Both the position numbers and the translations under genes were made by a program. From contig NZ_KB891806.1 of the NCBI RefSeq assembly GCF_000373565.1, positions 1 through 64,000 of the forward strand: a stretch of 64,000 bases of DNA. Direction: 5' to 3'. Shown piece by piece: positions 5,914-22,859 of this stretch (positions are counted from its first letter, which is position 1; the number at the start of each line of letters is the position of its first letter). The notes beneath the pieces are model-generated. The model saw only the letters and a list, made by a program, of their open reading frames with translations. It had not been told where the DNA came from and searched no databases. The stretch is from Streptomyces sp. HmicA12. Lineage in GTDB: Bacteria; Actinomycetota; Actinomycetes; Streptomycetales; Streptomycetaceae.

Positions 5914-6161
5914 CACCGCTCCTCTTGTGGACCCTGGCTCGTTCGTACGGGAACCGAGCCCGGGGCACCGCACCGGACGGGGCAGTCGGGTGAACGGGAG
6001 ACGGAGTGCGCAGGAACGTGAGATGGGGAACATCTGTGTCCCTTTCGTCACTTCCGCCACGCCCGAGGCGTACGCTGTAAAGCTGTCATGACGCCGCTCC
6101 TGTGTGCTCCTGCGTGGAGGGAACGGTCCCGGAACGGTTCCGTACAGAGAGTTGGCGCGCA

Positions 6162-7150: not shown

Positions 7151-7615
<465 letters not shown>

Positions 7616-7671: not shown

Positions 7672-7746
<75 letters not shown>

Positions 7747-7951: not shown

Positions 7952-8737
7952 ATGACCGTCCGCTCACGTCGCACCATCCGCACCCTGGCGGCGGCGGGCG
8001 CCGTGGTGGTGCTCGCCGCGACCGCGACCGCCTGCGGGGCCGACGCCTCCGACGACAAGCATCCCGACCACCGTTCCTTCGCCCTGGAGGGCCGGACGCT
8101 GACGGTGGACTCGGACGACTCGTCGCTCGAACTCGTCCCCGCGGACGGCGACAGCGACCGGGTGAAGGTGACCCGCTGGTTCGAGGGGTCCACGGTGATC
8201 GGCTCGGACCCGAAGCCCACCTGGTCGTGGGACGCGGGCGCCGGCCGGCTCACGCTCCGCCTGCACTGCGGCGGCGTCGTGACCGACTGCTCGGCCCGCC
8301 ACCGCGTCGAAGTGCCGCGCGGGGTGGCCCTGGTGGTCGACAACGGCGACGGCAGCGTCCGCGCGAGCGGCTTCGAGAGCGGCCTCGACATCACCACCCG
8401 GGACGGCTCGGTCCGCGTCACGGACACCTCGGGCCCGCTGCGCCTGCGCGGCCAGGACGCCTCACTGCGCGCCTCCGGCGTCGACGCCCGGCGGGTCTCG
8501 GTCGACACCCAGGACGGCTCGGCCGACATCGCCCTGCGCACGGCCCCGGACCGGGTCGCGGCCCGCAGCGAGGACGGCGCCCTGACGCTCACCCTCCCCG
8601 GCACGGCCCAGTACAAGGTCACCACCGGCACGGACGACGGCGCGGTCGACGTCTCCGTCCCCACCGACCCCCGCAGTGCGCACCAGGTCACGGCCCACGC
8701 CCAGGACGGAAAAGTCACACTCCGAACCGCGAACTAA
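7952..8737 (+). CDS. DUF4097-type beta-repeat lipoprotein
   Basis: A 261-residue protein starting at the ATG after GGGGGAG. The N-terminus (MTVRSRRTIRTLAAAGAVVVL...ATATAC) is a lipoprotein signal with a weak lipobox ending in Cys. The rest consists of short beta strands with repeated D-G-S turns (NGDGSVRASG, TRDGSVRVTD, TQDGSADIAL, SEDGALTLTL), typical of the right-handed beta-solenoid-like DUF4097 (putative adhesin) domain. It is presumably anchored on the outer face of the membrane. The biological role is unknown; homologues are frequent next to anti-sigma or ABC genes, but none is here. Confidence 0.75.
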   Translation: MTVRSRRTIRTLAAAGAVVVLAATATACGADASDDKHPDHRSFALEGRTLTVDSDDSSLELVPADGDSDRVKVTRWFEGSTVIGSDPKPTWSWDAGAGRLTLRLHCGGVVTDCSARHRVEVPRGVALVVDNGDGSVRASGFESGLDITTRDGSVRVTDTSGPLRLRGQDASLRASGVDARRVSVDTQDGSADIALRTAPDRVAARSEDGALTLTLPGTAQYKVTTGTDDGAVDVSVPTDPRSAHQVTAHAQDGKVTLRTAN

Positions 8738-8821
8738 CCGGCCCGTGTGTTCGTCATTAACCGGTGGGAGAATGGACACCGGGCAGGGCTGATGACGGCA
8801 CGGGCAGTGCGGGAGAGGTTA

Positions 8822-10237
8822 GTGACGGCGACGACGACAGACACGCACCACCATCCGTCGTCCCCGACCGCTGCCCGGCGCCCCGAAGACACGCCGTCAC
8901 GCCCGTCGCGTCCGCGCCCCGTGCGGGACTTCCTCACCCTCACCCTCCTCCCCCTGCCGATCCTCACGGCGGCACTCGGCGGAGCGTTCAACCCGGGCGG
9001 CACACGGAGATGGTTCGGCGGCCGGGCCGAGACCCAGCGCGTCCAGGCCCAGGAGGCCAAGGACGCCGCGGCCGCCGCGTTCTACGAGCTGGACACCGCC
9101 CAGCGCGACCTGCGCATCTCGATAGAGACGATCACCGCGGTCGACGACTCCCCGGCCGCCCGCCGCGCCGTCACCGACTTCCAGCAGCTCGGCACCCGCA
9201 TCGACGAGGTCAGCGCGCAGTACATCACCGCGGTCGACGCCCACGACCTTGACCGCGACGACCTGGAGGCGAGCGCGGCGAACCGCGCGCGCGGCGAACT
9301 GACCGCGGCCAAGGACCAGTTGACCCGCACCAAGCAGGACCTGGACCGGTTCGCGCAGGGCCTCGGCCCGCTGCTCGGCAAGGCGGAGACCCAGCTGGCC
9401 CGCCTCGCCCCGTCCGTGGAGCGCGCCCGCCAGGCCCTGCTCGCCGCGACGACCGCCCTCGACGGTGTGCGGCAGGCGGGCCTGAAGGCCGACGACCTGG
9501 CCGCCCGCCTCGCCGCCCTCGGCCCCGAGCTGACCAGGCTGAACCAGGGCGCGGGCCAGCACGGCGTGCCGGAGACGCTGGAGCGCGCGGAGCGTGTCGC
9601 GCGGGACGCGGAGGCGATCCGCGCGGAGGCCGACCGCCTCCCGGAGAAGGCCGCGGAGATCGACCACCGCCTGGTCTCGCTGCGCACCCGCGCCCAGGCA
9701 CTGCAGACCCGCGCGGGCCAGGTCGACCCGGTCCTCAGCGAGCTGCGGCGCCGGTTCGCGGCCGCCTGCTGGCAGGACCTGCAAGGCGTACCCCAGCAGG
9801 CCGTGGAGAACGTGCGGCAGGCCGAGACCAAGCTCGCCGAGGCCCGCACCGCCCGCGAGGCCCAGCGCTGGCCGGACGCGACGGCGCTGCTCTCGACCGT
9901 CCGCGCCCTGCTGAACAGCACGGACGAGTCGGTCTCCGCCGCCGCCGACCGCCTCCAGCGGCTCAACGCGGTGGCGAAGGACCCCCAGCAGGAGATCGAC
10001 CGCACCCGGTTCGCGATCCGGGACGCCCAGCGGCTGGCGATGAGCGGCCGCTCCACGCCCGAGCCGCGGCACGCCCGGCCGCTGGACGACTCGGTGGCCC
10101 GGCTCGACCGCGCGGTCGAGGGCCTGGAGGGCCGCCACCCCGACTACTGGCACTTCCTCACCGAGACGGAGGCCGTGCGGCGGACGGTGTCCCGGGTCGT
10201 CGCGCAGATCCGCGAGGACCGCGGCGGCGGCATCTGA
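8822..10237 (+). CDS. Long coiled-coil membrane-anchored hypothetical protein
   Basis: A 471-residue protein. Residues 1-35 are Thr/His/Pro-rich, followed by one hydrophobic segment (FLTLTLLPLPILTAALGGAF) and then about 400 residues of Ala/Glu/Arg/Leu-rich heptad sequence, a long coiled coil. The GTG start is preceded by GGGAGAGG; an ATG 30 nt upstream (MTARAVRERL) is the alternative. I do not recognise an enzymatic domain. The architecture suggests a cytoplasmic or envelope scaffold tethered to the membrane. Confidence 0.7.
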   Translation: MTATTTDTHHHPSSPTAARRPEDTPSRPSRPRPVRDFLTLTLLPLPILTAALGGAFNPGGTRRWFGGRAETQRVQAQEAKDAAAAAFYELDTAQRDLRISIETITAVDDSPAARRAVTDFQQLGTRIDEVSAQYITAVDAHDLDRDDLEASAANRARGELTAAKDQLTRTKQDLDRFAQGLGPLLGKAETQLARLAPSVERARQALLAATTALDGVRQAGLKADDLAARLAALGPELTRLNQGAGQHGVPETLERAERVARDAEAIRAEADRLPEKAAEIDHRLVSLRTRAQALQTRAGQVDPVLSELRRRFAAACWQDLQGVPQQAVENVRQAETKLAEARTAREAQRWPDATALLSTVRALLNSTDESVSAAADRLQRLNAVAKDPQQEIDRTRFAIRDAQRLAMSGRSTPEPRHARPLDDSVARLDRAVEGLEGRHPDYWHFLTETEAVRRTVSRVVAQIREDRGGGI

Positions 10238-10352: not shown

Positions 10353-10489
10353 GGCTCGGTCGGCTCGGTCGGCGCGATGTGCGCGGTTGGCACTGCGCGC
10401 GGGTCGGGCCGATCCTGGAGGTACGCAGCCATCTGTCTGTACGCAACCTCCGTACGCACAGGGGGGCCGGAAGGCGAGGCGAGGCGATC

Positions 10490-10996
10490 ATGGCCACGCA
10501 CGTACTCCACCCGGGATCCTGGCACCACGTCGCGCTCGACGAGCAGGCGCCCGTCGATCACCGCCTCAGCAGGGTGTACCGCGTCGGCGCGGGGCTGATG
10601 GGCCTGGTGCTGCTGGTCTTCGGCATCCTCGGGTTCATCGACAAGGTCGGCTTCTTCGACACGCGCGGTGACACGGTCGCGGGCCTGAGCACCAACGGCG
10701 CGCTCAGTTTCCTGTCCCTGTGCGCCGGCGCCCTGCTCATCGCGGGCATGCTGGCCGGCGGGTCCGTCGCGTCGACGCTCAACATGACGCTGGGTGTGCT
10801 GTTCATCCTCAGCGGCTTCGTGAACCTGGCGCTCCTCGACACCCGCTACAACTTCCTCGCCTTCCGCATCCAGAACGTCCTGTTCAGCTTCGCCGTCGGG
10901 CTGCTGCTGATGCTCTTCGGGATGTACGGGCGCGTCAGCGGCGGCCTGCCGCACGACAACCCGTACTGGAAGGCGCGCCACCCCGGAGCCCGGTGA
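10490..10996 (+). CDS. DUF4383 domain-containing membrane protein
   Basis: A 168-residue membrane protein with four predicted transmembrane segments (about 31-50, 71-93, 99-119, 128-148) and the DUF4383 pattern VYRVGAGLMGLVLLVFGILGF ... DTRYNFLAFR. The ATG is preceded by GCGAGGCGATC, a modest ribosome-binding site. The function is unknown; the family is widespread in actinobacteria, usually as single genes near stress or envelope functions. Confidence 0.8.
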   Translation: MATHVLHPGSWHHVALDEQAPVDHRLSRVYRVGAGLMGLVLLVFGILGFIDKVGFFDTRGDTVAGLSTNGALSFLSLCAGALLIAGMLAGGSVASTLNMTLGVLFILSGFVNLALLDTRYNFLAFRIQNVLFSFAVGLLLMLFGMYGRVSGGLPHDNPYWKARHPGAR

Positions 10997-11108
10997 TCGC
11001 GCGGCCGTCCGCTGTCGCGCAGCCTGTTACGGCGGCCGGTTCCTCTCCCGTCCGATTGACCTGGCGGGCGATTGCTCTCGCACAGGGTGCCGTGCGAGAT
11101 TGCTCCGC

Positions 11109-11807
11109 ATGACCAGCTCCCCGCCGGTTCCCCATCCCGGGCCCGACGTGCACGGCACGGCGATGGAGGCCGTGGCACGCGCCATCACCGAGGGCCGGTA
11201 CGCGACCGGCGCCACGCTCGAACTCCCGCGTGTGGCAGCGGACTTGACCCTGACCGAGCCGGTGCTCGGCGAGGCACTGCGGGCGCTCGCGGCGAAAGGG
11301 CTGCTGGACGGCACGGGCCGGGTGCGCCCGCGCTCCGCGTGGAACCTGCTCGACAGCGACGTACTGCGCTGGACCCTCGCTGCGGCACCGGTCTCACCGG
11401 CGTTCTACGGCGATCTGCACGAGTTGCGCCGCTCCGTCGAGCCGCCGGCCGCCGCGCTGGCCGCGCAGCACCGCTCGCCCGCCGACCTGACGGTGCTCGA
11501 CTCGGCCTTGGCGGCGATGGCCTGCGCCGAGCGGGCCGAGCACGCCGATCCGGTAGGTGCCGCGCAGGCCGACGCCACGTTCCACACGGCCCTGCTCACC
11601 GCGTCCGGCAACCGCTTCTACGCCCAGTTGCCCCGGGTCATCGCCCCGGCGCTGACCACCCGTGTCTGCGTCGTGCACGCGGGCCCGCACCACCACCCGC
11701 TGCCCTGCCACAGCGAGGTCGCCGCCCGGATTCGCGAACGGGACGCGGACGGGGCGTACACGGCGATGCTGGAACTCCTGGACGTCTCGCTCCGCGACGA
11801 CCCGTAA
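11109..11807 (+). CDS. GntR-family regulator with FCD ligand-binding domain
   Basis: A 232-residue protein. Residues 12-80 form a winged helix (AMEAVARAITEGRYATGATLELPRV...ALRALAAKGLLDGTG) of the GntR type; residues 90-225 are an all-helical FCD domain whose metal/ligand positions are suggested by FHTALL and the CHSEVAARI segment. GntR/FadR-type regulators usually bind an organic acid and repress adjacent catabolic genes, but the neighbours here are an FmdB zinc ribbon and a Ter locus, so the target is unclear. A TTG three codons upstream is an alternative start. The ten residues before the recognition helix are divergent from typical GntR members. Confidence 0.8.
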   Translation: MTSSPPVPHPGPDVHGTAMEAVARAITEGRYATGATLELPRVAADLTLTEPVLGEALRALAAKGLLDGTGRVRPRSAWNLLDSDVLRWTLAAAPVSPAFYGDLHELRRSVEPPAAALAAQHRSPADLTVLDSALAAMACAERAEHADPVGAAQADATFHTALLTASGNRFYAQLPRVIAPALTTRVCVVHAGPHHHPLPCHSEVAARIRERDADGAYTAMLELLDVSLRDDP

Positions 11808-11816
11808 TCTTGGGCC

Positions 11817-12032
11817 ATGCCTCGCTACGAATACCGCTGCCGCAGCTGCGGCGACACGTTCGAACTCTCCCGCCCCATGGCCGAGTCCTCGTCCCCGGCC
11901 ACCTGCCCCGCGGGCCACCCCGACACGGTCAAACTCCTGTCGACGGTAGCCGTGGCCGGCACCAAGTCCCCGTCGTCCCCCGCACCTTCGGGAGGCGGAG
12001 GCGGCTGCTGCGGCGGAGGCTGCTGCGGCTGA
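11817..12032 (+). CDS. FmdB family zinc-ribbon protein
   Basis: A 71-residue protein with an N-terminal MPRYEYRCRSCGDTFELSRPM and a second Cys-containing turn (ATCPAGHPD), the CxxC...CxxxH zinc-ribbon of the FmdB regulatory-type family, and a glycine/cysteine-rich tail (GGGGGCCGGGCCG). It starts 9 nt after the GntR-type gene stop, so co-transcription is likely. Its role is unknown; the terminal GGCCGGGCC tail is common in actinobacterial members and may bind metal. Confidence 0.85.
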   Translation: MPRYEYRCRSCGDTFELSRPMAESSSPATCPAGHPDTVKLLSTVAVAGTKSPSSPAPSGGGGGCCGGGCCG

Positions 12033-12040
12033 CGTCGCAC

Positions 12041-12087
12041 CCGCCTTGGGCAATCTGCCGTCGGCCGCCGCCTTGGGCAATCTGCCG
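12041..12087. repeat. Two 20-bp direct repeats, 27-bp period
   Basis: CCGCCTTGGGCAATCTGCCG occurs exactly at 12041-12060 and 12068-12087 in the convergent intergenic space, followed by a related degenerate stretch up to 12114. Confidence 0.85.
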
Positions 12088-12100
12088 CCAAGGGCGGCAG
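12082..12100. terminator. Candidate terminator hairpin between FmdB and HAD genes
   Basis: CTGCCGCC-AAG-GGCGGCAG forms an 8-bp perfect stem. It overlaps the second 20-bp repeat and lies between convergent genes. Confidence 0.55.
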
Positions 12101-12181
12101 GGTGGGCAAGGCGGCACCCCGGCGCGGGGCGAGCGCTCCAACCGACCCCCGCCCCGGCGCCGCCCACCCCAGCGCCCCACA

Positions 12182-12982
12182 TCACACCGCCCCGAGAAAC
12201 CCCCGCAACACGGCCTCCCCCGCAAGAACTCCCCGCTCCCCCAACACGGTCACCCCATCCGCGACCCACCCCACATCGGCCAACTCCCCATGCCCGGGCC
12301 GCCACCCCCGATCAACGGCCAGCAACAGATCCGCGTCCAGCAACGAATCCCCGGCCCCGAGCACCGCATCCGCCCCGACCCGCCGCGCGACCTCCCGCGC
12401 GGCCGCCCCCTTGGTCAACGGCTTCGGCACGGCGTACACCTTCCGCCCCTGCAGCGAAACGCCCCAGCCGACCCCCGCGGCCCACTCCCCGAGCTCCTTG
12501 ACCCATCCCTCGGGCAACCGCGCCCGGTCGACCACGAGATACGCGAACAGATCCTCGGCGACCCGCTCCTTCAACAGCCACTCCGGATCCGCGGCGGCGA
12601 CCATCCGCTCCCGCACCTCCCCGAGCGGCGCACACTCCGCGTCGAGCCGCGAGGCCACGTCCCGCCGCCACTCGGGATCCGACACCCCGTCGACCAGCAG
12701 GTGCCCTCCATTGGCGCAGATCGCGTACTTCGGCGCGGGCCCGGGCAACCGCACCCGCCCGTACTGCTCCCGCGTCCGCGTCGTCGTAGGCACGAACACC
12801 GCGCGCCGCCCGAGCTCGGCGAGCAGCGCGGCCGCGTCCTCCGTGACGTACGACAGGGGCTTCCCCTCGTACACCTCGACGCAGAGCAGCCGCGGCGCCT
12901 CGGCGTCGGGCATCGTCAGCCCGAGCGCGCCCGCGGAGTAGATGAGCGTACGGTCGAGATCGCTCGCCACCACCGTCGTCAC
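12182..12982 (-). CDS. HAD phosphatase of the Ter biosynthetic module
   Basis: A 266-residue HAD hydrolase: the nucleophile motif DLDRTL lies at residues 8-13, LTKGAAAREV supplies the motif III lysine near 200, and GAGDSLLDADLL near 220 is motif IV. An S6PP/Cof-type cap lies between. It starts at a GTG whose GTGA overlaps the TGA stop of the upstream phosphoribosyltransferase/StiP gene, so translation is coupled. In Ter-type stress loci such HAD enzymes are proposed to dephosphorylate a nucleoside-like metabolite made by the linked phosphoribosyltransferases. Last gene of the minus-strand operon. Confidence 0.85.
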   Translation of the reverse strand: MTTVVASDLDRTLIYSAGALGLTMPDAEAPRLLCVEVYEGKPLSYVTEDAAALLAELGRRAVFVPTTTRTREQYGRVRLPGPAPKYAICANGGHLLVDGVSDPEWRRDVASRLDAECAPLGEVRERMVAAADPEWLLKERVAEDLFAYLVVDRARLPEGWVKELGEWAAGVGWGVSLQGRKVYAVPKPLTKGAAAREVARRVGADAVLGAGDSLLDADLLLAVDRGWRPGHGELADVGWVADGVTVLGERGVLAGEAVLRGFLGAV

Positions 12983-15516
12983 TGCGCGGCCACCGCCTTG
13001 CCGTCCGCGCCGGTGGCCCCTCGCGTGAACCGCGGATGGATCAACCCCACGCAGCTGTAAGGCAGTTCGTCCACCACCTCGACCGGCACCCCGCGCTGCT
13101 CCGCCAGCAACCGCACATGGTCCAGGTCCGCCCCGGCGTCCGCCCGCGCCAGGATCTTCCACGGCACGCGCCGCAGCAGCACCCGTGTGGTCTCGCCGAC
13201 GCCGGGCTTGACGAGGTTCACGTCGTGGATCCCGTACTCCTCGCTGATCCGCTCGACGGCGGCCCAGCCCTCCCACGTCGGTGTGCGATCGGCCCCGAGG
13301 AGCTCCTTGACGTCCACGTCGACCGCGTCGCCGACCTCCCCGAACCACTCCTCCACCACGTCGAGGAACTGCCCGGACACATCCGAATCGGCCAGCTCCC
13401 GGTAGAACTTGCCCCCGTGGAAGTCGTCGGGACCGACCAGGTCGGCCCGCAGGACGGTCCGCGAAATCAGCCCGGAAACAGTCGAGTTGAGGCAGGCCGA
13501 GGGGATGAGGAAGTCCTCGCGCGTCCCGTACGTGCGCACGCACGACCCGGGGTCGGCGAGCACGGCGATCTCCGGATCGAACCCGCGCGCCCCGCCCTGC
13601 TCCTCGAACTCTCTTATCGCGGCGGCGAGTTCACGCGTGATCGCGCCCTTGCCCGTCCAGCCGTCGACGAACACCACATCGGCCGGGTCGTGGTGCGCGG
13701 CCAGCCAGCGCAGCGCGTTCGCGTCGATGCCGCGGCCGCGCACGATGGACACCGCGTAGTGCGGCAGCTCCACGCCGTGGCGGGCGAGCGCCCAGCGCCT
13801 CATCAGCACCCCCACCGGCGTACCGGCCCGCGCCAGCGAGACGAGCACGGGACGGCGCGGCGCACGCTCCGCGAGTACCGTCTCCGTCACCACACCCACC
13901 GCGTGCGCGATCCGCCCGGCCGACGCGTCGAGCGCCGCGTGGAACAACTCCTGGTACTGCGGGCTGGGTTGGTACTCGACCGGCAGCGACTCCGCGTAGT
14001 GGGCGCCGCCGCTCTGGATGGCCTCCTCGCGCTCCTCGGTGGGCGCTTCGAGCCGTACGTCGGACAGGTCCTGGAGCAGCCAGCCGACCTCGTCGGGCGC
14101 GTACGAGGAGAAGGCGGGTCCGCGCAGCGGCTCGGGCAACGACATCGGGGGCCTTTCAACAGCGGTTGGTGCAGCAGGTACCTGCCGTGCGGGTACGTGC
14201 GAGGGAACGACCACGACCACGACCCGCGCGGCATGCTCGGCCACCCGCGCCAACAGCCCGTCGGGCGCGGCCAGTTCGGGTGTGTCGCCGGCCGAGTCGA
14301 GGACGACGACGACCGTGTCGAAGCCGCCGCCCGCCACGTTGTACGCGTACCGCTCGCCGGGTCCGTCGGCCGGGTCGTCGTGCGCCGGGAAGACGAGCCG
14401 GGTGCGGATCGCGTACCCCGGGTCGTCGACGGCGAGAACGGGTGAGCGGGTCGTGGTGGAGTACGCGACGTCGGCGCCGACCGCCTCCAGCGCGGTGGCC
14501 AGGCGCAGCGGCGCGTACATCAACTCCTCGTTGCCCAGGACGAGTACCCGGCCCCGCACGTGGGGAGCCAGCCGCTCGGCCATCCCCGGCAGCGCCGCCT
14601 CGAGCCGCGCGCGGTGCTCGGGCCGGAACCCGTGCCGACCGCCGTCCGGCAGGCCGTCGGGCCAGTCGAGCCCGGCCGGCCGCACGATCTCGCCGCGCTC
14701 GCGGCGCGGCTGCGGCAGCCCGGCCCCGGCGGCCCGCTCGTGCTCGGCGACCAGCGCCTGTCCCTTCTCCAGGACGCCGTCCGGCAGGTGCACGGAGCCG
14801 CGCGCGGACACGATCAGGTCCACCCGGGCGCCGATCTCGCGCGCGAACGCCTCCAGCCGCCCCTGGTCCCCGGGCGAGCGCATGTCGACGAGCGCGACGA
14901 TCACGTACCGCTCCCGCGCATGCAGCTCGTGCAGGGCGCGGACGGTGTTGAGCACGGTGTTGCCGGTCGAGAACTCGTCGTCGACGAGGACCAGCGGGCC
15001 GTCCCCGGCCAGCAGCTCCGGATCCTCCGGCAGCAGCAGGTGCGAGGTGGCGTGCGAGTGCGACTCCTCGAAGCCGCCCGCGCGCGCCACACCGTCGACG
15101 GGGCGGCGCGTGGAGTGCAGGTACGGGGCGAGCGCCAGCCCGTCGGCGACCGAGTGGCCGAGGCCCGTCGCGGTCTCCGCGTAGCCGAGCACGACGGCCT
15201 GCCGCGCCGCCTCGTCACCGAGCAACTCCCGGACGCGTACGCCCAGTTCGTACCCTGAGCGCCAGACCACCGACGGGCGCTGCGGCACGTGCTTGCCCAG
15301 CACGTTCGACACCAGCAGATGCGCGCGCTTGGGGTTGCGCCGCAGCGCGAGCCCGAGCAGCCCGGTCAGCTCCGGGTCACCGGCCAGCCCGACACCGAGC
15401 CGCTCGGCGACCCACGCACCCGACCACACCGCGTTCACCTCGTGCACCGCGCTCACCTCGTGCACCGCGTCCACCGTCCGCCCCGTGTCCCCTGCATCCC
15501 TTGCCTCTGTCGTCAT
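12979..15516 (-). CDS. Phosphoribosyltransferase-TRSP and StiP/PELOTA protein in one 845-codon frame
   Basis: The first half (1-about 455) is a PRTase_2-type phosphoribosyltransferase with PRPP loop LVDDEFSTGNT (177-187) followed by a TRSP domain. The second half (458-845) is a StiP/PRTase_1-type domain with a second PRPP-loop-like motif VFVDGWTGKG (615-624) and a C-terminal PELOTA-type RNA-binding fold (about 767-829). Families of the Ter biosynthetic module, proposed to make a nucleoside-like metabolite, include both units, which I expect as separate genes. Here no stop separates them; the joint is Ala/Pro/Val-rich. A good internal start (GAAAGG, then ATG at 14145) lies exactly at the domain boundary, so a 388-residue separate protein, a fusion or both may be made. 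The ATG overlaps the stop of the lyase gene (ATGA). Confidence 0.85.
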   Translation of the reverse strand: MTTEARDAGDTGRTVDAVHEVSAVHEVNAVWSGAWVAERLGVGLAGDPELTGLLGLALRRNPKRAHLLVSNVLGKHVPQRPSVVWRSGYELGVRVRELLGDEAARQAVVLGYAETATGLGHSVADGLALAPYLHSTRRPVDGVARAGGFEESHSHATSHLLLPEDPELLAGDGPLVLVDDEFSTGNTVLNTVRALHELHARERYVIVALVDMRSPGDQGRLEAFAREIGARVDLIVSARGSVHLPDGVLEKGQALVAEHERAAGAGLPQPRRERGEIVRPAGLDWPDGLPDGGRHGFRPEHRARLEAALPGMAERLAPHVRGRVLVLGNEELMYAPLRLATALEAVGADVAYSTTTRSPVLAVDDPGYAIRTRLVFPAHDDPADGPGERYAYNVAGGGFDTVVVVLDSAGDTPELAAPDGLLARVAEHAARVVVVVVPSHVPARQVPAAPTAVERPPMSLPEPLRGPAFSSYAPDEVGWLLQDLSDVRLEAPTEEREEAIQSGGAHYAESLPVEYQPSPQYQELFHAALDASAGRIAHAVGVVTETVLAERAPRRPVLVSLARAGTPVGVLMRRWALARHGVELPHYAVSIVRGRGIDANALRWLAAHHDPADVVFVDGWTGKGAITRELAAAIREFEEQGGARGFDPEIAVLADPGSCVRTYGTREDFLIPSACLNSTVSGLISRTVLRADLVGPDDFHGGKFYRELADSDVSGQFLDVVEEWFGEVGDAVDVDVKELLGADRTPTWEGWAAVERISEEYGIHDVNLVKPGVGETTRVLLRRVPWKILARADAGADLDHVRLLAEQRGVPVEVVDELPYSCVGLIHPRFTRGATGADGKAVAAQ
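14143..14157 (-). promoter_or_regulatory. Internal ribosome-binding site and ATG at the domain boundary
   Basis: On the minus strand GAAAGG stands 6 nt before ATG (14145-14143), which would begin MSLPEPLRG, a natural N-terminus for the StiP/PELOTA half. It decides whether the downstream half is also made alone. Confidence 0.6.
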
Positions 15517-16700
15517 GCGGGCAGCCCCGCGGTCAGCAGCTCCACGAAGCCGACGTCCTCCCGGGCCACGCCGAACGCCTCCGCGCGCTGCAGCGTCCGC
15601 TCGGCCCAGGCCCGGTGCGGCTTCACCTCGTTCATCTTGTTCGTGTACGCCGACCTGAGGACTCCGCCGCCGCCCCGCTCGGGGCGCAGGATGTCGCAGG
15701 CGTCGCTGTACTCCTCGTGGCTGACGACGGACAGCGCGTGCACGGGCAGGACGTGCGAGGGGTGGATGCAGGTCTTGCCCAGCAGCCCGTTGGCCCGGTC
15801 CATCGCGATCTCGCGCAACAGCCCGTCCATGTCGTGCTCGATGAGCGCCTCGCGCAGCGACCCCGCGCCCTCCTCCAGGAAGGGGCTGCGGCGCAGCTGC
15901 GGCTTGAACATCCGCTCCTGATGGCGGAAGTACTCCCAGACGGGTCCGGTCACCGTGAAGCCGGTGCCGTCCGCCCTGCCGAGCAGATTCACCACGTCGG
16001 CGATGACGGAGGCCACGATCTGCACGTCGTACGCCGTCATGTCGGGCGGTCTGCGCAGTCCGTACGCCGAACAGAAGTCGGTGACGCCGAGCCGCAGCGC
16101 GAGGACCCGCTCGCGGTACTTGTCGACGGTGCGGGAGATCCCGGCGAGGGTCTCGGTGCGCGTCTCCAGGTGCAACAGCTCCGGCGACTCGAGAACCGGC
16201 ATGGCGAAAAGTCGCCGTCCGGTGGCCGTCTCGGCGGCGGTCAGGGCCTCAAGGAACGGAACCCCCCGCTCCTCGGTGAACTTCGGCAGTACAAATCCGG
16301 ACAGCAGCCCCACCGCGGAGCCCAGGCGGCGGGCGAGATCGGTGATCTGCTCGGGCGTGCGGACGCGGACGAACAGCAGCGGCGGCTCGGCCCCGGCGAC
16401 CCCGGCCTCGGCCCCGGAGCGCGACGCGAGTGCGGCGAACTGCCGGACCAGATTGTCCTCCGCGTCCCGGACGTCCGCGTCGTCGATCGAGTCCTCCAGG
16501 CACAGCACCATGGAGACGACTCCGCGCCCGGCCTGCTTGAGCACGTCGTCCGCGAGGTGCGGACGGGTGGCCGGGCTGTAGAGCGTGGCGCCGAGCGCCG
16601 CCGCGAGCATGCGAGGCGCGGAGTCCGCGGTGAACGCCTGCGGCTCCCGATGGAACAACCGCTCCCGCACCTCAGGGGCAATGTGCCCGAAATGACGCAT
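15513..16700 (-). CDS. HpcH/HpaI aldolase/CitE-like lyase of the Ter module
   Basis: A 395-residue TIM-barrel protein of the citrate-lyase-beta/HpcH family: VVSMVLCLEDSIDDADV carries the acidic metal-binding Glu-Asp pair, LFVRVRTPEQI the substrate Arg, and GFVLPKFTE, FAMPVLESPE and GVTDFCSAYGLRRPPD follow in barrel order. It is longer than typical CitE and matches the variant encoded in Ter biosynthetic loci, where a C-C bond-cleaving or forming step on a nucleoside-like product is proposed. GGGGGAG precedes the ATG. It is the first gene of a three-gene operon with 4-bp overlaps. A TTGACA element (16808-16813, minus strand) lies about 110 bp upstream, although a matching -10 box is weak. Confidence 0.85.
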   Translation of the reverse strand: MRHFGHIAPEVRERLFHREPQAFTADSAPRMLAAALGATLYSPATRPHLADDVLKQAGRGVVSMVLCLEDSIDDADVRDAEDNLVRQFAALASRSGAEAGVAGAEPPLLFVRVRTPEQITDLARRLGSAVGLLSGFVLPKFTEERGVPFLEALTAAETATGRRLFAMPVLESPELLHLETRTETLAGISRTVDKYRERVLALRLGVTDFCSAYGLRRPPDMTAYDVQIVASVIADVVNLLGRADGTGFTVTGPVWEYFRHQERMFKPQLRRSPFLEEGAGSLREALIEHDMDGLLREIAMDRANGLLGKTCIHPSHVLPVHALSVVSHEEYSDACDILRPERGGGGVLRSAYTNKMNEVKPHRAWAERTLQRAEAFGVAREDVGFVELLTAGLPA

Positions 16701-16943
16701 AAGACTCCCCCGATGTGACGCTGTCGTAGCCCCGTCGCGGCTCCGTACCGCCTTGCCGCCCGACGCGACGCGCGAACAGGTGGCCGGTAATAGTACGTAC
16801 AAAGCCATGTCAAGGGTTCCCACCCGCAATGAAATTCTGGTAACCCCCATATGTCGAAGGGTGTGTTCCGGACTTCGGCGGGCCTCGACCCGGCAGTGGA
16901 TCTTGGCACCCCGCGTTGTCCTGGCCGGTGTCAGGAGGGCAGG

Positions 16944-17747
16944 ATGAACGGCATGACGCACGCGATGCTCAAGGGGGCGAACGTCCCGCTCGACGCCACG
17001 GCGGTGCGCGCCGTGCTCCGCTGGACCCCGGGGCAGGGCGTGCCGGACGTGGACGCCTCCGCACTGCTGCTCGGCGCGGACGAGCGGGTCCGCTCCGACG
17101 AGGACTTCGTCTTCTACAACCAGCCCCGGCACCCCTCGGGCAAGGTCTGGCGGCTCGGCAAGAAGCGGGTGGCCGACGGCCTGACCGACACCGTCCAGGC
17201 GGATCTGGCGGGCCTCGGCCCCGAGATCGGCCGGATCCTGCTCGTGGCCTCCGCGGAGGACATCGAGTTCAAGCACGTACCGTCGCTGCGGATGTTCGTC
17301 TACGACGCCGCGGCCGACGGCGCCGAACCGCTCGCGCACTTCGACATCAAGCCGGAGACCGGCGCCGAGACCGCGCTGATCTGCGGCGAGCTGTACCGCC
17401 GCGGGGACGGCTGGCGGCTGCGCGCGGTCAGCGAGGGCTACTCGAACGGCCTGATCGGCCTCGCCACCGACTTCGGCATCTCGGTCGACGAGACCGCCGC
17501 GTCCGCTCCGGCGGCCCCGACGCCCACGCCGGCCACCGCACCGGTGCCGGTCCCCGCCGCCCCTTCGGACTTCCCGCTGCCGCCGCCGCAGCAGCCTCCG
17601 GCGTACGGGTACCCGCCGCAGCCCACGACCCAGCCAGCCCCGCAGCACCAGCCCGCGTACGGCTACCCGCAGCCGGTGGCGGCGACGGTGTACCCCGACC
17701 CGATGTTCCGGCTCCCGCCGCAGGGGCCGCAGTTCATCGGGCGGTGA
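16944..17747 (+). CDS. TerD domain protein with proline/tyrosine-rich tail
   Basis: A 267-residue protein. Residues 1-180 form a TerD domain ([54 protein letters not shown]), with the acidic clusters that bind Ca2+ in TerD proteins. Residues 185-267 are Ala/Pro-rich with two YGYP-type repeats ([17 protein letters not shown]), a likely disordered interaction tail. The start has AGGAGGG 6-7 nt upstream; two further in-frame ATGs follow within nine codons. It is divergent from the lyase operon across 243 bp, suggesting shared control of Ca-binding Ter proteins and the enzyme module. Confidence 0.9.
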
Positions 17748-17767
17748 GCCCGGGGGGGGCGGCAGAC

Positions 17768-18511
17768 TCAGCGACCGCTGACGGACTTGTAGCCCCGCCC
17801 CCACTGCAGCCCCCACCCGTACAACCGGTCCAGCTCCGCCTGGAACCCGTACACGAACTTCACCTCGCGCCGCACCACCAGATCGCCCTTGACGTTCTCG
17901 ATGGAGACGACGGCGCAGGACCGGGCCTGCGGCTGCCGCTCGTCGAGGCTGATCTCGACCCGCGGCCCGTTGCTCGGATACAGGGTCACCACCGCGTGGG
18001 TGCGGTCGAAGGCCGGCGTCTGGTCGTAGATGTAGACGAACACCAGCAGCCGCTTGATGGATTCGCGGTGGTCGAGATTGACGTAGATGGTCTCGCCGGA
18101 CGCCGAACCGAACCGGTCGTCACCGCTGAGCTTCACGTACGGCGGAGCGTTCAGTTCCCCGAAGAAGCCGCCCAGCGGCTGTACGACACCCTTCTCGCCG
18201 CTCTGCAGCTCGTACAGGCAGCCGAGGTCCAGGTCAACGTTGACCATCGACTGGGTGTGCGCCTGCACGACATCGGGCTTGAACACGCTGAACGGATGGC
18301 GCAGCAGGCTGTTCTTCTCCGGCCCGCCGATGTCCGAGGTCCGCATCCGCCAGGAGAGATTGACCCGCAGGTTGCCGGTGTCCGCGCCCTGCTTGGAGAG
18401 CGAGACGGCCGGGTGCCGCTTGGTGAGTTCGATGCTGTTGGTCGCCGCGCTGCCCGAATCGAACTCGAACTGCGCGGAGTTGCCCCGCCATAGCCTGTCC
18501 CAGAAGGACAT
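17768..18511 (-). CDS. TerD/TerA-like tellurium-resistance domain protein
   Basis: A 247-residue protein with a diverged TerD-type fold: AVSLSKQG, NLRVNLSWRM, NVDLDLGCLYELQSG, GDDRFGSASGETIYVNLDH and RLLVFVYIYDQTPAF follow the order of TerD strands. The extended N-terminus and the KFVYGFQAELDRLYGWGLQW end are not found in short TerD proteins and resemble TerA-like members. Function: probable Ca-dependent cytoplasmic or membrane-associated stress protein. It converges on the 267-residue TerD gene with only about 20 bp between stops. Confidence 0.8.
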   Translation of the reverse strand: MSFWDRLWRGNSAQFEFDSGSAATNSIELTKRHPAVSLSKQGADTGNLRVNLSWRMRTSDIGGPEKNSLLRHPFSVFKPDVVQAHTQSMVNVDLDLGCLYELQSGEKGVVQPLGGFFGELNAPPYVKLSGDDRFGSASGETIYVNLDHRESIKRLLVFVYIYDQTPAFDRTHAVVTLYPSNGPRVEISLDERQPQARSCAVVSIENVKGDLVVRREVKFVYGFQAELDRLYGWGLQWGRGYKSVSGR

Positions 18512-18600
18512 ACCGCCCCCAAGTGCCGCTGCGTCCGCGTACGTTGATCATCTACCCGCCGATCACGTACCCGTACTCGTCCCCGCCCGTACATGCCGAC

Positions 18601-18639
18601 GGGGCGGCCGGTGAGGACTCGTCCTCGTACGACCGCCCC
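18601..18639. terminator. Terminator downstream of the DUF475 gene
   Basis: Outer arms GGGGCGG/CCGCCCC and inner arms GAGGAC/GTCCTC form a two-tier hairpin, placed after the DUF475 stop in its direction of transcription. Confidence 0.7.
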
Positions 18640-18692
18640 GCTGACAGGGTTCCAGGAAAGGGCCCGGGGTCAAACCTCGGGTCCTCGGTGGC

Positions 18693-19838
18693 TCAGACTC
18701 CGGACGCCACCTCGGCCTTGTCCGGGCTCCCGGATCCGCCCTCTTCTGCGGCGAGGCGCTTGTTGCGCCGGACCGAGGAGAAGAACGACCAGGCGATCAG
18801 GACGACGCCCACGAGACCGGTGATGATCTCGTTGATCTCGTACTGGATGGTGACCAGGAGGATCACGGCGAGCGCGCCGATCGCGTAGTGCGCGCCGTGC
18901 TCCAGGTACACGTAGTCGTCGAGGGTGCCCTGGCGGACCAGGTAGACGGTGAGCGAACGGACGTACATGGCACCGATGCCGAGGCCGAGGGCCATCATCA
19001 CGATGTCGTTGGTGATGGCGAAGGCGCCGATCACACCGTCGAAGGAGAACGACGCGTCCAGGACCTCAAGGTAGAGGAACATGAAGAACGCGGCCTGGCC
19101 GGCCAGGACCACGGCCGGCTTCTGCTTGCCGGTGCGCTTGGCTTCTTCCTCGGCCTCGTGTTCGCGCTCTTCCTCTTCCTCGATCCGGTTCTCGAAGAAG
19201 CTCGAGAGGCCGCCGACGATGAGGTAGGTGATCAGACCCGCGACACCGGCGAGCAGCACGGTGGCCTGCTTGTCGACGTGCGCGCCGCCGTGCTGGTGGG
19301 CGTTGACCGCGACGGTCATGGAGGCGACGAGGAGGATGATCAGCGCGATGCAGACCGACAGCATGTCGACCTTGCCGAGCTTGGCGAGCGGCCGCTCGAT
19401 CCAGCGCAGCCACTGGATGTCCCGCTCCTCGAAGATGAAGTCGAGGAAGATCATCATCAGGAACATGCCGCCGAAGGCGGCGATGGACGGGTGCGCGTCC
19501 GTCACCAGCTGCTGGTAGCGGTCCGGCTGATTGAAGGCGAGGTCGACGGCCTCGACCGGACCCATCTTGGCGCTGATCGCGACGATGACGACAGGGAAGA
19601 CCAGTCGCATTCCGAAGACGGCGATCAGCACACCGACCGTGAGGAAGATCTTCTGCCAGAAGGCACTCATCTTCTTCAGGATTCCGGCGTTGACCACCGC
19701 GTTGTCGAACGACAGCGAGATCTCCATGATCGCGAGGATCGCGACGACCCCGAAAGCGGTCCAACCGCCGTAGAACACCGCCGCGATCAAGCCGAGCACG
19801 GTGATCGCGAACGACCAGCCGAAGGTTTTCAGAACCAC
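18693..19838 (-). CDS. DUF475 integral membrane protein (TerC-superfamily-like)
   Basis: A 381-residue polytopic membrane protein: the N-terminal MVLKTFGWSFAITVLGLIAAVFYGG is followed by IMEISLSFDNAVVNAGIL, the TerC-type membrane-embedded acidic/Asn motif, which recurs later as LDASFSFDGVIGAFAIT. An acidic cytoplasmic loop (NRIEEEEEREHEAEEEAKR) sits near the middle. TerC-like proteins are implicated in metal-ion export (Mn/Ca) and in assembling Ter complexes at the membrane. It lies upstream of the TerD/TerA-like gene and downstream of two terD genes on the same strand, so it is probably the membrane hub of this locus. Confidence 0.9.
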   Translation of the reverse strand: MVLKTFGWSFAITVLGLIAAVFYGGWTAFGVVAILAIMEISLSFDNAVVNAGILKKMSAFWQKIFLTVGVLIAVFGMRLVFPVVIVAISAKMGPVEAVDLAFNQPDRYQQLVTDAHPSIAAFGGMFLMMIFLDFIFEERDIQWLRWIERPLAKLGKVDMLSVCIALIILLVASMTVAVNAHQHGGAHVDKQATVLLAGVAGLITYLIVGGLSSFFENRIEEEEEREHEAEEEAKRTGKQKPAVVLAGQAAFFMFLYLEVLDASFSFDGVIGAFAITNDIVMMALGLGIGAMYVRSLTVYLVRQGTLDDYVYLEHGAHYAIGALAVILLVTIQYEINEIITGLVGVVLIAWSFFSSVRRNKRLAAEEGGSGSPDKAEVASGV

Positions 19839-19908
19839 TGGCTACCCCATCGTGTGTACGGGTTTCCCCGTGCTGGTTGTACGGGGCTCCCCCGCTCCGT
19901 GCACGGCT

Positions 19909-20484
19909 TTACGAAACATTGACTCCGAAGTCTAGAGCGATGCCCCGGAGCCCGGACGCGTACCCCTGACCGACCGCACGGAACTTCCACTCGCCCCCGT
20001 AGCGGTACACCTCACCGAAGATCATCGCGGTCTCGCTGGAGGCGTCCTCGGAGAGGTCGTAGCGGGCGAGTTCCTGGCCGTCGGCCTGATTGACGACGCG
20101 AATGAACGCGTTGCTGACCTGGCCGAAAGTCTGCCCTCTGTTGTCCGCGTCGTGGATCGAGACGGGGAAGATGATCTTGTCGCAGTCGGCCGGCACCTTG
20201 GAGAGGTCCACGATGATCGACTCGTCGTCGCCCTCGCCCTCACCCGTGAGGTTGTCACCGGTGTGCTCGACGGAGCCGTCGGGGCTCGTGAGCTGGTTGT
20301 AGAAGATGAACCACTCGTCGCCCATCACCCGGCCGCCGCTGCACAGCAGCGCACTGGCGTCCAGGTCGAAGTCGGCTCCGGTGGTGGAGCGTGCGTCCCA
20401 ACCGAGCCCGACCAGGACCTGCGTGAGGTTCGGTGCGGCCTTGGAGAGGGAGACATTGCCTCCCTTGGCGAGCGTGACGCCCAT
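19909..20484 (-). CDS. terD: TerD family protein
   Basis: A canonical 191-residue Ter[51 protein letters not shown], and C-terminal [12 protein letters not shown]. The Asp/Glu clusters correspond to the two Ca2+ sites known in TerD structures. The start ATG follows GGGGAGGACC. It is a tandem paralogue of the next gene upstream, about 65 percent identical by eye, but separated from it by a strong terminator, so it needs its own promoter in the roughly 55 bp before it. Confidence 0.95.
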
Positions 20485-20539
20485 ATTGGTGGTCCTCCCC
20501 GAGGTGTAAGGCATTGCTGGCTTTGCTGGTGCCCTGCGC

Positions 20540-20574
20540 GTCCGGCGCCGCACTACGGGAGTGCGGCGCCGGAC
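20540..20574. terminator. Strong terminator between the two terD genes
   Basis: A 15-bp perfect stem (20540-20554 with 20560-20574) and ACGGG loop lie after the stop of the upstream terD gene (minus strand). Confidence 0.85.
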
Positions 20575-20600
20575 AGATGAGCGTGGTGGTGCGCTACGGC

Positions 20601-21176
20601 TCAGACGTTGACGCCGAAGTCCTGCGCGATGCCGCGCAGACCCGAGGCGTAGCCCTGGCCGACGGCGCGGAACTTCCACTCCGCCCCGTTGCGGTACAGC
20701 TCGCCGAAGACCATGGCGGTCTCCGTCGAGGCGTCCTCGGAGAGGTCGTAACGGGCGATCTCGGTGCCGCCCGTCTGGTTCACGACGCGGATGAACGCGT
20801 TGCGCACCTGACCGAAGGACTGCTGGCGGTTCTCGGCGTCGTAGATCGAGACCGGGAACACGATCTTGTCGACGTCCGCCGGGACGGCCGCGAGGTTGAC
20901 CTTGACCTGCTCGTCGTCGCCCTCGCCCTCACCGGTGAGGTTGTCACCGGTGTGCTCGACCGAGCCGTCGGCGCTCTTCAGGTTGTTGAAGAACACGAAG
21001 TCCTGGTCGTTGCGGACCTTGCCTTCGGCGCTGGTCAGGATCGCGCTGGCGTCGAGGTCGAAGTCCGTACCGGTGGTGGTACGGACATCCCACCCCAGGC
21101 CCACGACGACCGCCGTGAGACCAGGGGCCTCCTTGCTCAGCGATACGTTGCCGCCCTTGCTGAGGCTGACTCCCAC
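20601..21176 (-). CDS. terD: TerD family protein
   Basis: A second canonical 191-residue TerD ([50 protein letters not shown]). The GTG start is taken because GGGAGG lies 6 nt upstream and the protein then aligns end to end with its neighbour. TerD proteins bind Ca2+ and, in Streptomyces, influence stress tolerance and development. A sigma-R-like promoter is visible upstream. Confidence 0.95.
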
Positions 21177-21233
21177 GAGTCCTCCCTGTGGTGTTGGGGG
21201 CGGGGAGCCCCGAAGTACGTCTGGCATCGGATC

Positions 21234-21262
21234 AACGTCTGGATCCTAGTGACGGGTTCCCG
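21234..21262 (-). promoter_or_regulatory. Sigma-R-like promoter candidate for terD
   Basis: On the minus strand GGGAAC (21262-21257), a 19-nt spacer and GTTG (21237-21234) resemble the SigR consensus GGGAAT-N18-GTTG. The leader to the GTG start would be about 50 nt. Spacing is one longer than the usual optimum. Confidence 0.35.
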
Positions 21263-21320
21263 CAACCGGCGAGGCTTCCTACCGGGTGTCGTCCTGTAGA
21301 GGGCCTCTCTACAGGGTGCC

Positions 21321-21779
21321 CTAGAGGCTGTCGATGGCCTTGACGTACTCGTTCAGGTCGCGAGCGTCCGGCAGGCCGTTGACGACGGTCCAGCGGACGA
21401 CGCCCTCCTTGTCGATGACGAAGGTGCCGCGCACCGCGCAGCCCTTCTCCTCGTCGAAGACGCCGTACGCGCGCGAGGTCTCGCCGTGCGGCCAGAAGTC
21501 GCTCAGCAGCGGGTACTCGAGGCCCTCCTGCTCGGCGAAGACCCGCAGCGTGAACGGGGAGTCGTTCGACACGGCGAGCAGCTGCACGTCGTCGTTGACG
21601 AACTTCGGCAGCTCGTCGCGCAGGGCGCACAGCTCACCGGTGCACACCCCGGTGAAAGCGAACGGGTAGAAGAGCAGCACCACGTTCTTCTCGCCGCGGA
21701 AGTCCGAGAGCTTCACGGTCTCGCCGTGCTGGTTCTTGAGCTCGAACTCCGGAGCCTTGGTGCCGACCTCGATCGCCAT
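21321..21779 (-). CDS. AhpE-type peroxiredoxin
   Basis: A 152-residue thioredoxin-fold peroxidase with the peroxidatic motif [13 protein letters not shown] (Cys46; conserved Pro, Thr and later Arg). A second cysteine at 51 is in the same helix, and another lies in KGCAVRGTF, so disulfide relay beyond the 1-Cys mechanism is possible. It reduces H2O2, organic peroxides or peroxynitrite with a thiol partner in the cytoplasm. The start [12 protein letters not shown] is the standard AhpE N-terminus. Upstream lies a terminator of the next gene, so it is monocistronic. Confidence 0.9.
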
Positions 21780-21920
21780 GGTGAAGATTCCCTTCGATGG
21801 GGCTGTTCGGGTGAGTTCAGCCTAGTTCCCGCACCTGAGTGCTCTGTCGCCGCCTGCCTCGCTCCGGGGCGGTCACCGGCCCGGCCCGCGCCTCGGCCCG
21901 TGACCGGGCCCGGCGAACGC

Positions 21921-21966
21921 GTGAGGCCCTCACAGGCACGCCGAGACGCACCCGTGAGGGCCTCAC
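21921..21966. terminator. Terminator of the DUF3052 gene
   Basis: GTGAGGCCCTCAC (21921-21933) and GTGAGGGCCTCAC (21954-21966) are perfect inverted repeats; each arm is itself nearly palindromic, so alternative small hairpins can form. Confidence 0.8.
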
Positions 21967-21996
21967 CCTGAGATTCCCGTTCCGCCGGGACAGCTC

Positions 21997-22428
21997 CTAC
22001 CGCTTCTTGGCTGCGGCCTTCGGCGTGGCAAGACGGCTGCCCGTCCAGTCCTTGCCCGCACTGACGCTCTTGCTCGCGGAAAGCCCGGCAGTGGTGGCGG
22101 CCTCGCCGATCTCGCTCGGCTCGACGTACCCGTCACGCCCGGTCTTCGGCGTCAGCAGGAGGATGGACCCGCCCTCTTCCATGTACGCGATGGCATCCAC
22201 CAACGCATCAGTAAGGTCCCCGTCGTCCTCACGGAACCAGAGCACCACGGCGTCAGCCACGTCGTCGTAGTCCTCGTCGACGAGGTTGGAGCCGATGGTC
22301 TCTTCGATGACCTCGCGGAGCTCCTGATCGACGTCGTCGTCGTAGCCGATCTCCTGGACCACCTGGTCGGTCTGGAACCCGAGCCTTACGGCAAGGTTCG
22401 TCTCCGCGTGGTCCGCGGTCGCGCTCAC
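21997..22428 (-). CDS. DUF3052 domain-containing protein
   Basis: A 143-residue acidic protein starting at GTG after AGGAGG. The body (AVRLGFQTDQVVQEIGYDDDVD...LREVIEETIG...LVDEDYDDVADAVVLWFRED...GGSILLLTPKTGRDGYV) is the conserved DUF3052 core, a small alpha/beta fold. The tail is Lys/Ala-rich. Actinobacteria keep this gene divergently next to aceE, which hints at a link to central carbon metabolism, but no activity is known to me. Confidence 0.85.
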   Translation of the reverse strand: MSATADHAETNLAVRLGFQTDQVVQEIGYDDDVDQELREVIEETIGSNLVDEDYDDVADAVVLWFREDDGDLTDALVDAIAYMEEGGSILLLTPKTGRDGYVEPSEIGEAATTAGLSASKSVSAGKDWTGSRLATPKAAAKKR

Positions 22429-22859
22429 GGATTGCCTCCTGATCATGTTTACGAAGTTGTCTGCGGCTTCGCGCGCACGCGAAGCGTTGGCCGTAGTCCA
22501 CACGTGCGCGACGGATCGCGCAAGTACCCGGCCCCCGAGACCGCCGAAACGGTGACGTTCCTGGCCGTGTCACCGCAACTCCAGTCAAGGATCCCCCCAG
22601 GTCAGTGATGTATGCCACAGCGTTCTGCCGGGTTTGCCCGCACTGCCCGACCACCGAGCGTAACCAGGGCCGAACGGCCCCACGGAACACCTGAACGACG
22701 CGGGCGTATCGTTGCGATTTGTTCGAACCCGATCGAGGGTCGCCGTGCGGAATCCGGATTACCTCGCGGTAGAGATGACGATTCCGATTCCGCGGTACAC
22801 GATGGACAGCGGCGTACCCGACAGTGAACCAGCGGCATCACCGACAGTGAGGGAACAGC
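22429..22859. other. 431-bp divergent region between DUF3052 and aceE
   Basis: No gene is supported here. It contains a perfect 8-bp hairpin GCTTCGCG-CGCA-CGCGAAGC (22466-22485) in the DUF3052 leader, an inverted repeat CGGTGAC/GTCACCG (22550-22556, 22569-22575), the palindrome AATCCGGATT near 22750, and two copies of CCGACAGTGA (22818-22827, 22841-22850) just before aceE. No convincing -35/-10 pair for aceE was found. Confidence 0.6.
22466..22485 (-). repeat. Perfect inverted repeat in the DUF3052 leader
   Basis: GCTTCGCG-CGCA-CGCGAAGC, 8-bp arms with a 4-nt loop, about 40 bp before the DUF3052 start on the minus strand; could be an operator or an RNA hairpin. Confidence 0.5.

Follow-up and report, generated by a model that had tools for sequence, protein, structure and literature searches.

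The chromosome of Streptomyces sp. HmicA12 carries a biosynthetic operon of the tellurium resistance (Ter) type that is free of ATP-grasp. It lies in the 64,000-nucleotide stretch analysed here (contig NZ_KB891806.1, positions 1 to 64,000, hereafter the window) beside genes for TerD-type proteins and a DUF475/TerC-like membrane protein. The operon encodes on the minus strand, in this order, a CitE/RipC-like C-C bond lyase, a fusion protein with PRTase_2, TRSP, StiP and PELOTA domains, and a phosphatase-like protein of the haloacid dehalogenase (HAD) type. Ter biosynthesis of this kind is already known; Anantharaman, Iyer and Aravind reportedly proposed a Ter biosynthetic module in 2012 and predicted a nucleoside-like product for it. 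What is new is the fusion of the phosphoribosyltransferase (PRTase) proteins, the ATP-grasp-free operon and a linked gene for an EzrA-like coiled-coil protein. Ter clusters are carried by many plasmids.

It is proposed, with about an even chance of being right, that this chromosomal module makes a small ribosyl compound and that TerD proteins detect this compound at the membrane complex of DUF475. The CitE-type lyase would supply or trim a building block, and PRTase_2, paired with a degenerate TRSP copy, would transfer 5-phosphoribose from phosphoribosyl pyrophosphate (PRPP) to an acceptor. The other PRTase-like domain, StiP, placed by PELOTA, might carry out another transfer or an exchange. 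The HAD protein would take off the terminal phosphate, and the EzrA-like protein could tether the set to the membrane. Gene content, conservation, the fusion, the intact motifs, the coiled-coil linkage and the joint absence of lyase and StiP were seen directly; we infer the substrates, the order of steps, the sensing and the tethering. The proposal is supported by the PRPP loop, two PRTase folds, the HAD motifs, the CitE features, the genus-wide lyase, the joint absence of lyase and StiP and the co-occurrence of the coiled-coil gene, as well as by a near-identical relative of one aligned Ter HAD that has very probably been assayed as a phosphatase.

Enzymes of the operon

The fusion protein is a single open frame in all 77 Streptomyces loci in which the PRTase was found. 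In its PRTase_2 part the D-D-E, T-G and T of the PRPP loop, among them D179, D180, T184, G185 and T187, are invariant across 15 aligned sequences, so that the two acids and the TGxT of a type I PRTase are present. Residues 47-245 of the AlphaFold model match the folds of xanthine and adenine phosphoribosyltransferases (Z 10.7), and the top fold matches are purine enzymes. TRSP aligns with PRTase_2 by hhalign (E 9e-6, probability 83) and is therefore probably a degenerate second PRTase-like copy. The StiP loop FVDGWTGKG (invariant D154, W156, G158, K159 and G160) holds one acid instead of two; type I PRTases usually carry two acids in the PRPP loop and uracil PRTases one. The StiP model matches the hypoxanthine-guanine phosphoribosyltransferase (HGPRT) fold (Z 9.3, 154 residues aligned, root-mean-square deviation 4.0). 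The fusion model as a whole has a mean predicted local distance difference test score (pLDDT) of 72.5 with low confidence at 445-516 and 674-710, and the StiP match is therefore only moderate; by profile comparison StiP against PRTase_2 was too weak (probability 4.9). Judged by its lack of a conserved cysteine and its modelled fold, StiP looks like a PRTase and not like a cysteine protease. The PELOTA_1 profile matches L7Ae at E 0.0078, where the NEtTK motif of L7Ae, an RNA contact, aligns with igEaTR, the E and a basic residue being kept and the N lost.

The lyase contains the motifs PATR, LED, FVR, LPK and GKxxIHP, a set chosen from alignments with PDB proteins that match it down to 1.6e-12, and by these features resembles the CitE/RipC acyl-CoA lyase superfamily. 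The HAD protein of the window gave no Pfam match but carries the motifs DxDxT, T, K and G-D-x-x-x-D. These are invariant in 14 aligned sequences (the window HAD and 13 from Ter clusters), save that the earlier of the two D residues in G-D-x-x-x-D is kept in at least 90%. Taken alone it matches the PDB entries 6cj0 and 6d3v, named ‘Trehalose phosphatase’, at 4e-10 by phmmer. The Ter HAD of a Pseudomonas aeruginosa plasmid cluster (L051) matches the same entries over its full length at E 2e-158 and carries Cys85 and Cys231; it has also a third cysteine, Cys239, where the PDB chain has Arg. Cys85 and Cys231 are named for the extrachromosomal P. aeruginosa enzyme Paer-ecTPP, which was assayed on trehalose-6-phosphate (PMC6838324), and from these cysteine positions we infer that 6d3v/6cj0 is Paer-ecTPP. 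The Ter HAD clade thus very probably includes a published trehalose-6-phosphate phosphatase, of which the window HAD would be a distant relative; a profile match near 1e-88 lends no independent support, L051 itself being in the profile. This identity is not stated in the passages of the Ter literature searched, and it provides a first substrate lead for the system. The initial annotation had spoken of a nucleoside-like product, which is a prediction of the literature; since the only assayed enzyme that could be linked with this HAD clade works on trehalose-6-phosphate, that term is weakened and not established, and a ribosylated sugar is possible. The same annotation held that the product had not been identified, and indeed none is named in the literature searched.

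Distribution of the module and the linked coiled-coil gene

Gene order was compared in the best 80 of 582 confirmed StiP loci, all 80 from Streptomyces. As far as the contigs reach, the order is DUF3052-Prx-TerD-TerD-DUF475-TerD-(tailed TerD, reversed)-lyase-PRTase:StiP-HAD; 64 of the 80 are complete from DUF3052 onward, and the other 16 are exactly those whose contig breaks off within the 9 kb upstream of StiP. A TerD that seemed misplaced in five truncated loci proved to be a paralogue taken as best match, with the real copy past the contig end. Median dN/dS (ratio of nonsynonymous to synonymous substitution rates) against the window is 0.12 for StiP, 0.20 for the lyase, 0.23 for the HAD gene, 0.28 for the PRTase and 0.24 for the coiled-coil gene; because the order is identical in 80 loci and the enzyme genes lie at 0.12-0.28, the arrangement is not due to chance. 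The claims that the operon is divergent from the YGYP-tailed TerD and that the enzymes are linked to TerD and DUF475 are borne out. Translational coupling by 4-bp overlaps had also been claimed. Both overlaps exist in the window (lyase stop with PRTase start at 15513-15516, PRTase stop with the GTG of the HAD gene at 12979-12982), but they vary between loci, the former occurring in 14/74 and the latter in 36/80, and are therefore no evidence of function.

The lyase is found at E 1e-98 or better in 104/104 genomes of the genus (split over two frames in G105) and in none of 15 other genomes of the order, 10 of which gave weak matches only (4e-9 to 9e-4). StiP was found in 190 of 200 Streptomycetaceae genomes representing 16/17 genera, the family name being deduced from named loci. 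Some StiP open frames in this wider family have only about 390-600 residues, and the fusion is therefore probably not universal there. A scan of 246 genomes of the phylum yielded a StiP match in 12, with 11 over the Pfam cut-off: ten were at E 3e-103 or better, one was partial (1.3e-29) and one stood at 1e-4. The enzyme locus is a core locus of Streptomycetaceae, fixed and chromosomal. Among 26 genomes of the family, 10 without and 16 with StiP, the lyase was present in 0/10 and 15/16 respectively, agreeing with StiP in 25/26, and DUF475 was present in all 10 and all 16. The disagreeing genome (G397) has a weaker StiP match (1.2e-66) and neither lyase nor coiled-coil gene; another genome, G500, is 71% complete. 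As lyase and StiP are jointly absent while DUF475 stays, the enzymes seem to form a unit that can be lost without the membrane core of Ter, in agreement with the tellurite resistance which terZ-F alone confers on E. coli MG1655 (PMC8115787). By the same token tellurite may be a poor read-out for the enzyme operon. With a core locus in genetically tractable soil bacteria, and relatives that have DUF475 without lyase and StiP, the product can be searched for by metabolome comparison.

The identities assigned to the gene set by the initial annotation stood, although the lack of the proteobacterial ATP-grasp step had been missed, as had the linked coiled-coil gene. The ATPgrasp_Ter family PF15632 has no member in the operon, and its best match in the genome itself is at E 9.0e-6. 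It occurs at 3e-30 or better in 50/104 genus genomes, away from the operon in the three compared (G008, G034, G063). Such distant genes were rejected as the missing step, since PF15632 also catches generic ATP-grasp enzymes (13/14 control genomes) and the own genome holds no strong match. The operon shares with the 2012 module PRTase_2-TRSP, StiP-PELOTA, C-C lyase and HAD genes beside TerD/TerC, and differs from it in lacking ATP-grasp, in the fused PRTase parts, in the linked EzrA-like gene and in its chromosomal, family-wide occurrence. Seventeen plasmid or phage matches were opened; one unannotated locus (L139) was left out and another (L053) was read by tblastn. The clusters of Klebsiella (L050), Pseudomonas (L051), Polaromonas (L145) and Deinococcus (L146) have the same enzyme families as the window but the order ATP-grasp-PRTase-HAD-StiP-lyase, ATPgrasp_Ter being confirmed in L050 and L146 and annotated in L051 and L145; Azospirillum shows this order with no recognised ATP-grasp. 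Of the Gram-positive plasmids opened, six carry lyase, PRTase and StiP, each time in this order (Tsukamurella, Mycolicibacterium, Mycobacteroides, Lactococcus, Alkaliphilus, Brevibacillus), with a small reversed gene between lyase and PRTase in Alkaliphilus. A HAD-type gene follows in 5/6, none being annotated beside the Brevibacillus operon, and ATP-grasp is annotated in 0/6. Within 8-9 kb flanks only PRTase, HAD and StiP were recognised in phage ME3, Bradyrhizobium and R. etli p42d, which suggests that those three are the core enzymes of the Ter module. A Streptomyces plasmid (L138) has a lone StiP (8295-9425), next to which lie genes for a gluconokinase and an alcohol dehydrogenase-like protein.

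Close counterparts are the plasmid operons of Mycolicibacterium alvei (L137), Tsukamurella (L049) and Mycobacteroides abscessus (L148), which have lyase-PRTase-StiP-HAD, DUF475, TerD and a coiled-coil gene, likewise with no annotated ATP-grasp; they differ in their separate PRTase and StiP genes, in the coiled-coil gene lying directly upstream of the lyase, and in being plasmid-borne. This upstream gene, unannotated in the plasmids, had been considered as an ATP-grasp, gave no Pfam match and proved to be of the same coiled-coil family as the window gene (BLASTP 2e-27, hhalign 99.7%). The family is present in 41/41 genus genomes, and in the phylum scan in 10/246, exactly those ten with full-length StiP, where by listed coordinates the two genes share a contig about 2-8 kb apart. 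Among the 26 family genomes it occurs in 15/16 of those with StiP. In Streptomyces it is convergent and lies downstream of the HAD gene; of the 75 loci whose flank is long enough, 74 have it within 8.2 kb of that gene (all but L054), five more loci having been left out for short flank. The coiled-coil gene belongs to the Ter system, and the interval 12182-21176 given by the initial annotation is too short for the whole system, as this gene (8822-10237) lies outside it. The AlphaFold2 model is all-helical (pLDDT 80.6), with an N-terminal hydrophobic stretch in Streptomyces forms followed by helices. Its best fold match, EzrA (4uxv), is weak (E 0.046, none at 0.001 or better), and Pfam EzrA scores 30.6 bits, under the curated cut-off of 39.6. 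The protein resembles EzrA of Bacillota in these helices and, in its Streptomyces forms, in the hydrophobic stretch before them, and differs by its Ter linkage and sub-cut-off score. It is a candidate scaffold of the Ter operon, and a first candidate for holding the enzymes at the membrane. A relation to TelA was considered and dropped, no similarity being found (hhalign probability 0.2). The spacing from the HAD gene to the coiled-coil gene is variable, about 0.3 to 8 kb, and in the window a tRNA-Val gene lies beyond the latter.

Alternative readings

Several points weigh against a ribosyl-compound module with a linked scaffold. StiP has a single acid (VDG) where type I PRTases usually carry two, and the window HAD is only 20-27% identical to proteobacterial, Deinococcus and phage HADs. 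The co-occurrence of coiled-coil gene and StiP rests on few independent lineages; the phylum genome with the partial StiP (G245) is over the Pfam cut-off and has no coiled-coil gene, and that gene persists in 2/10 family genomes devoid of StiP. The 26 genomes of the absence test were hand-picked and searched for lyase, StiP, coiled-coil gene and DUF475 only. Finally, no assay of the operon was found in the literature searched.

The product might instead be a ribosylated sugar or other glycoside, the PRTase adding phosphoribose to an acceptor hydroxyl and the HAD protein removing the phosphate, which is considered unlikely though worth keeping in mind. PRTase and phosphatase pairs act in this way in aminoglycoside pathways. 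The trehalose phosphatase matches of L051 and of the window HAD speak for it; nevertheless the equation with Paer-ecTPP depends on cysteine positions and is disturbed at Cys239, the Streptomyces HAD is distant, activity in vitro may be promiscuous, and the top PRTase_2 fold matches are purine enzymes. It is distinctly less probable that the product is an alarm nucleotide which serves to exclude phages or plasmids. This was proposed in PMC7824862, where the Ter system of Acinetobacter phage ME3 is also reported to be fairly complete, and StiP matches 2567 of 72,556 plasmid records, the plasmids with Ter clusters being mostly those of enteric bacteria. Among 50,697 phage records the fusion protein has four matches, of which two belong to this same phage ME3 and another covers the PRTase_2 part only. 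Viral contigs hold two StiP loci and two lyase loci, one of the latter sharing a contig with a StiP locus. A syntenic core locus in Streptomycetaceae is, however, unlike a defence island, and at 1e-3 no PADLOC family was found for lyase, fusion or HAD, the weak matches of the coiled-coil protein (JetC2 1.5e-4, LmuB 7.8e-4) being probably due to coiled-coil similarity.

That the fusion belongs to ordinary base salvage or nitrogen scavenging is held to be improbable. By synteny mapping the fusion should be SCO2362, and through this mapping nitrogen starvation is the condition indicated by published expression data. With one mismatch, the GlnR consensus of S. venezuelae, GTnAC-n6-GTnAC, is matched in 34/74 promoters (the window and 73 other loci), and GAAAC-n6-GTnAC in 25, with the chance rate not computed. 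Against this stand the exact GlnR box, found in 0/74, and Sven_2176, which appears once in the main text of the source paper (Table 2) and was found in no chromatin immunoprecipitation list there. The tie to TerD/DUF475 or TerC, moreover, recurs in the opened plasmids of Bacillota, Actinomycetota and Pseudomonadota, though not in all. A bolder idea, that the fusion acts on RNA, is regarded as quite improbable: PELOTA would hold a structured RNA, StiP would exchange or add a phosphoribosyl or base unit from lyase and PRTase_2, and HAD would clear the terminal phosphate. Stress signalling by Ter would then be a system of RNA or nucleotide modification that the EzrA-like scaffold tethers at the membrane. 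Least credible is a cysteine protease, the name StiP bears in Pfam and RefSeq: no cysteine is conserved, the best column being common to 9/16 sequences, and the invariant loop and the HGPRT fold match point elsewhere.

Locus layout and promoter region

The features of the locus are collected in Table 1. All genes named by the initial annotation (lyase, fusion, HAD, four TerD-type genes and DUF475/TerC) are present with strong family scores, except for the HAD gene and the TerD-type gene at 17768-18511, which is under the Pfam cut-off but recurs at this position in all Streptomyces loci long enough to include it. The genome has 16 TerD-type matches and one StiP match.

Table 1. Features of the Ter locus, positions in the window
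Feature	Position	Strand	Remark
CC, EzrA-like helical coiled-coil protein, 471 aa	8822..10237	+	GTG 8822, start chosen by comparison
HAD phosphatase, HAD-IIB like, GTG start	12182..12982	-	catalytic motifs and phmmer match
PRTase_2-TRSP-StiP-PELOTA fusion, 845 aa	12979..15516	-	Pfam domains in one frame
PRTase_2 domain with PRPP loop VLVDDEFSTGNT	14797..15360	-	E 5.8e-66
TRSP domain	14260..14646	-	E 3.7e-39
StiP domain, PRTase-like, FVDGWTGKG loop	13354..14109	-	E 1.1e-104
PELOTA_1 (L7Ae-like) domain	13036..13275	-	E 1.8e-35
CitE/RipC-like C-C bond lyase, PF15617	15513..16700	-	E 9.7e-123
Divergent promoter region, lyase vs tailed TerD	16701..16943	.	holds conserved 20-mer
TerD with YGYP-repeat tail	16944..17747	+	E 1.7e-40
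Divergent TerD-type protein	17768..18511	-	PF02342 E 0.00067, under Pfam curated cut-off
DUF475/TerC-like membrane protein	18693..19838	-	PF04332 E 1.9e-138
TerD, SCO2367 suggested by synteny	19909..20484	-	PF02342 E 4.2e-83
TerD, probable SCO2368 equivalent	20601..21176	-	PF02342 E 8.5e-87

The 20-mer TACGTACTATTACCGGCCAC at 16780-16799 (minus strand) recurs without mismatch in 60 of 73 Streptomyces loci, one longer intergenic region having been dropped from the set, and has no second copy in this genome even when 3 mismatches are allowed; GGGAAC-N18-CGTAC occurs in the divergent region of 67/73. As to published physiology, the targets of sigma-E include SCO2368 (PMC6767563), and one proteome cluster has SCO2367-68 among its tellurium resistance proteins (PMC7244524). 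In S. viridochromogenes, oxidative stress raised the level of a relative with 92% identity to SCO2368 (PMC3912134). Part of the sco2368 sigma-E site has a one-mismatch counterpart at 21457-21473, upstream of the TerD gene at 20601-21176, which supports anchoring the SCO numbers at that gene (5/100 window shuffles matched at up to 2 mismatches). FasR is presumably SCO2386. One paper gives it as SCO2366 (PMC8981147), which conflicts with the synteny mapping used here and is taken as a slip.

A loose YG/GYP pattern is matched once or more in the tail of the YGYP-tailed TerD in 71/71 loci whose frame ends inside the locus (74 carry the gene), and the end of this tail (17700-17747), near-constant across six example tails, may be a docking peptide. 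No Rfam match was found in 12000-22600 at E up to 0.5. Two candidates around the coiled-coil gene were discarded: the ORF (open reading frame) at 7342, which had looked conserved but whose recurring part, some 25 codons long, apparently reflects the tRNA-Val gene 7672-7746, and an ARAGORN tRNA-Glu at 9598-9693, which falls within the coiled-coil gene and is probably false. Between HAD and coiled-coil genes (10379-11807) lie genes for an FCD/GntR regulator and for a DUF4383 membrane protein, and a Cu/Zn superoxide dismutase-like domain (PF00080, E 3.6e-7) is encoded at 5386-6198 on the minus strand.

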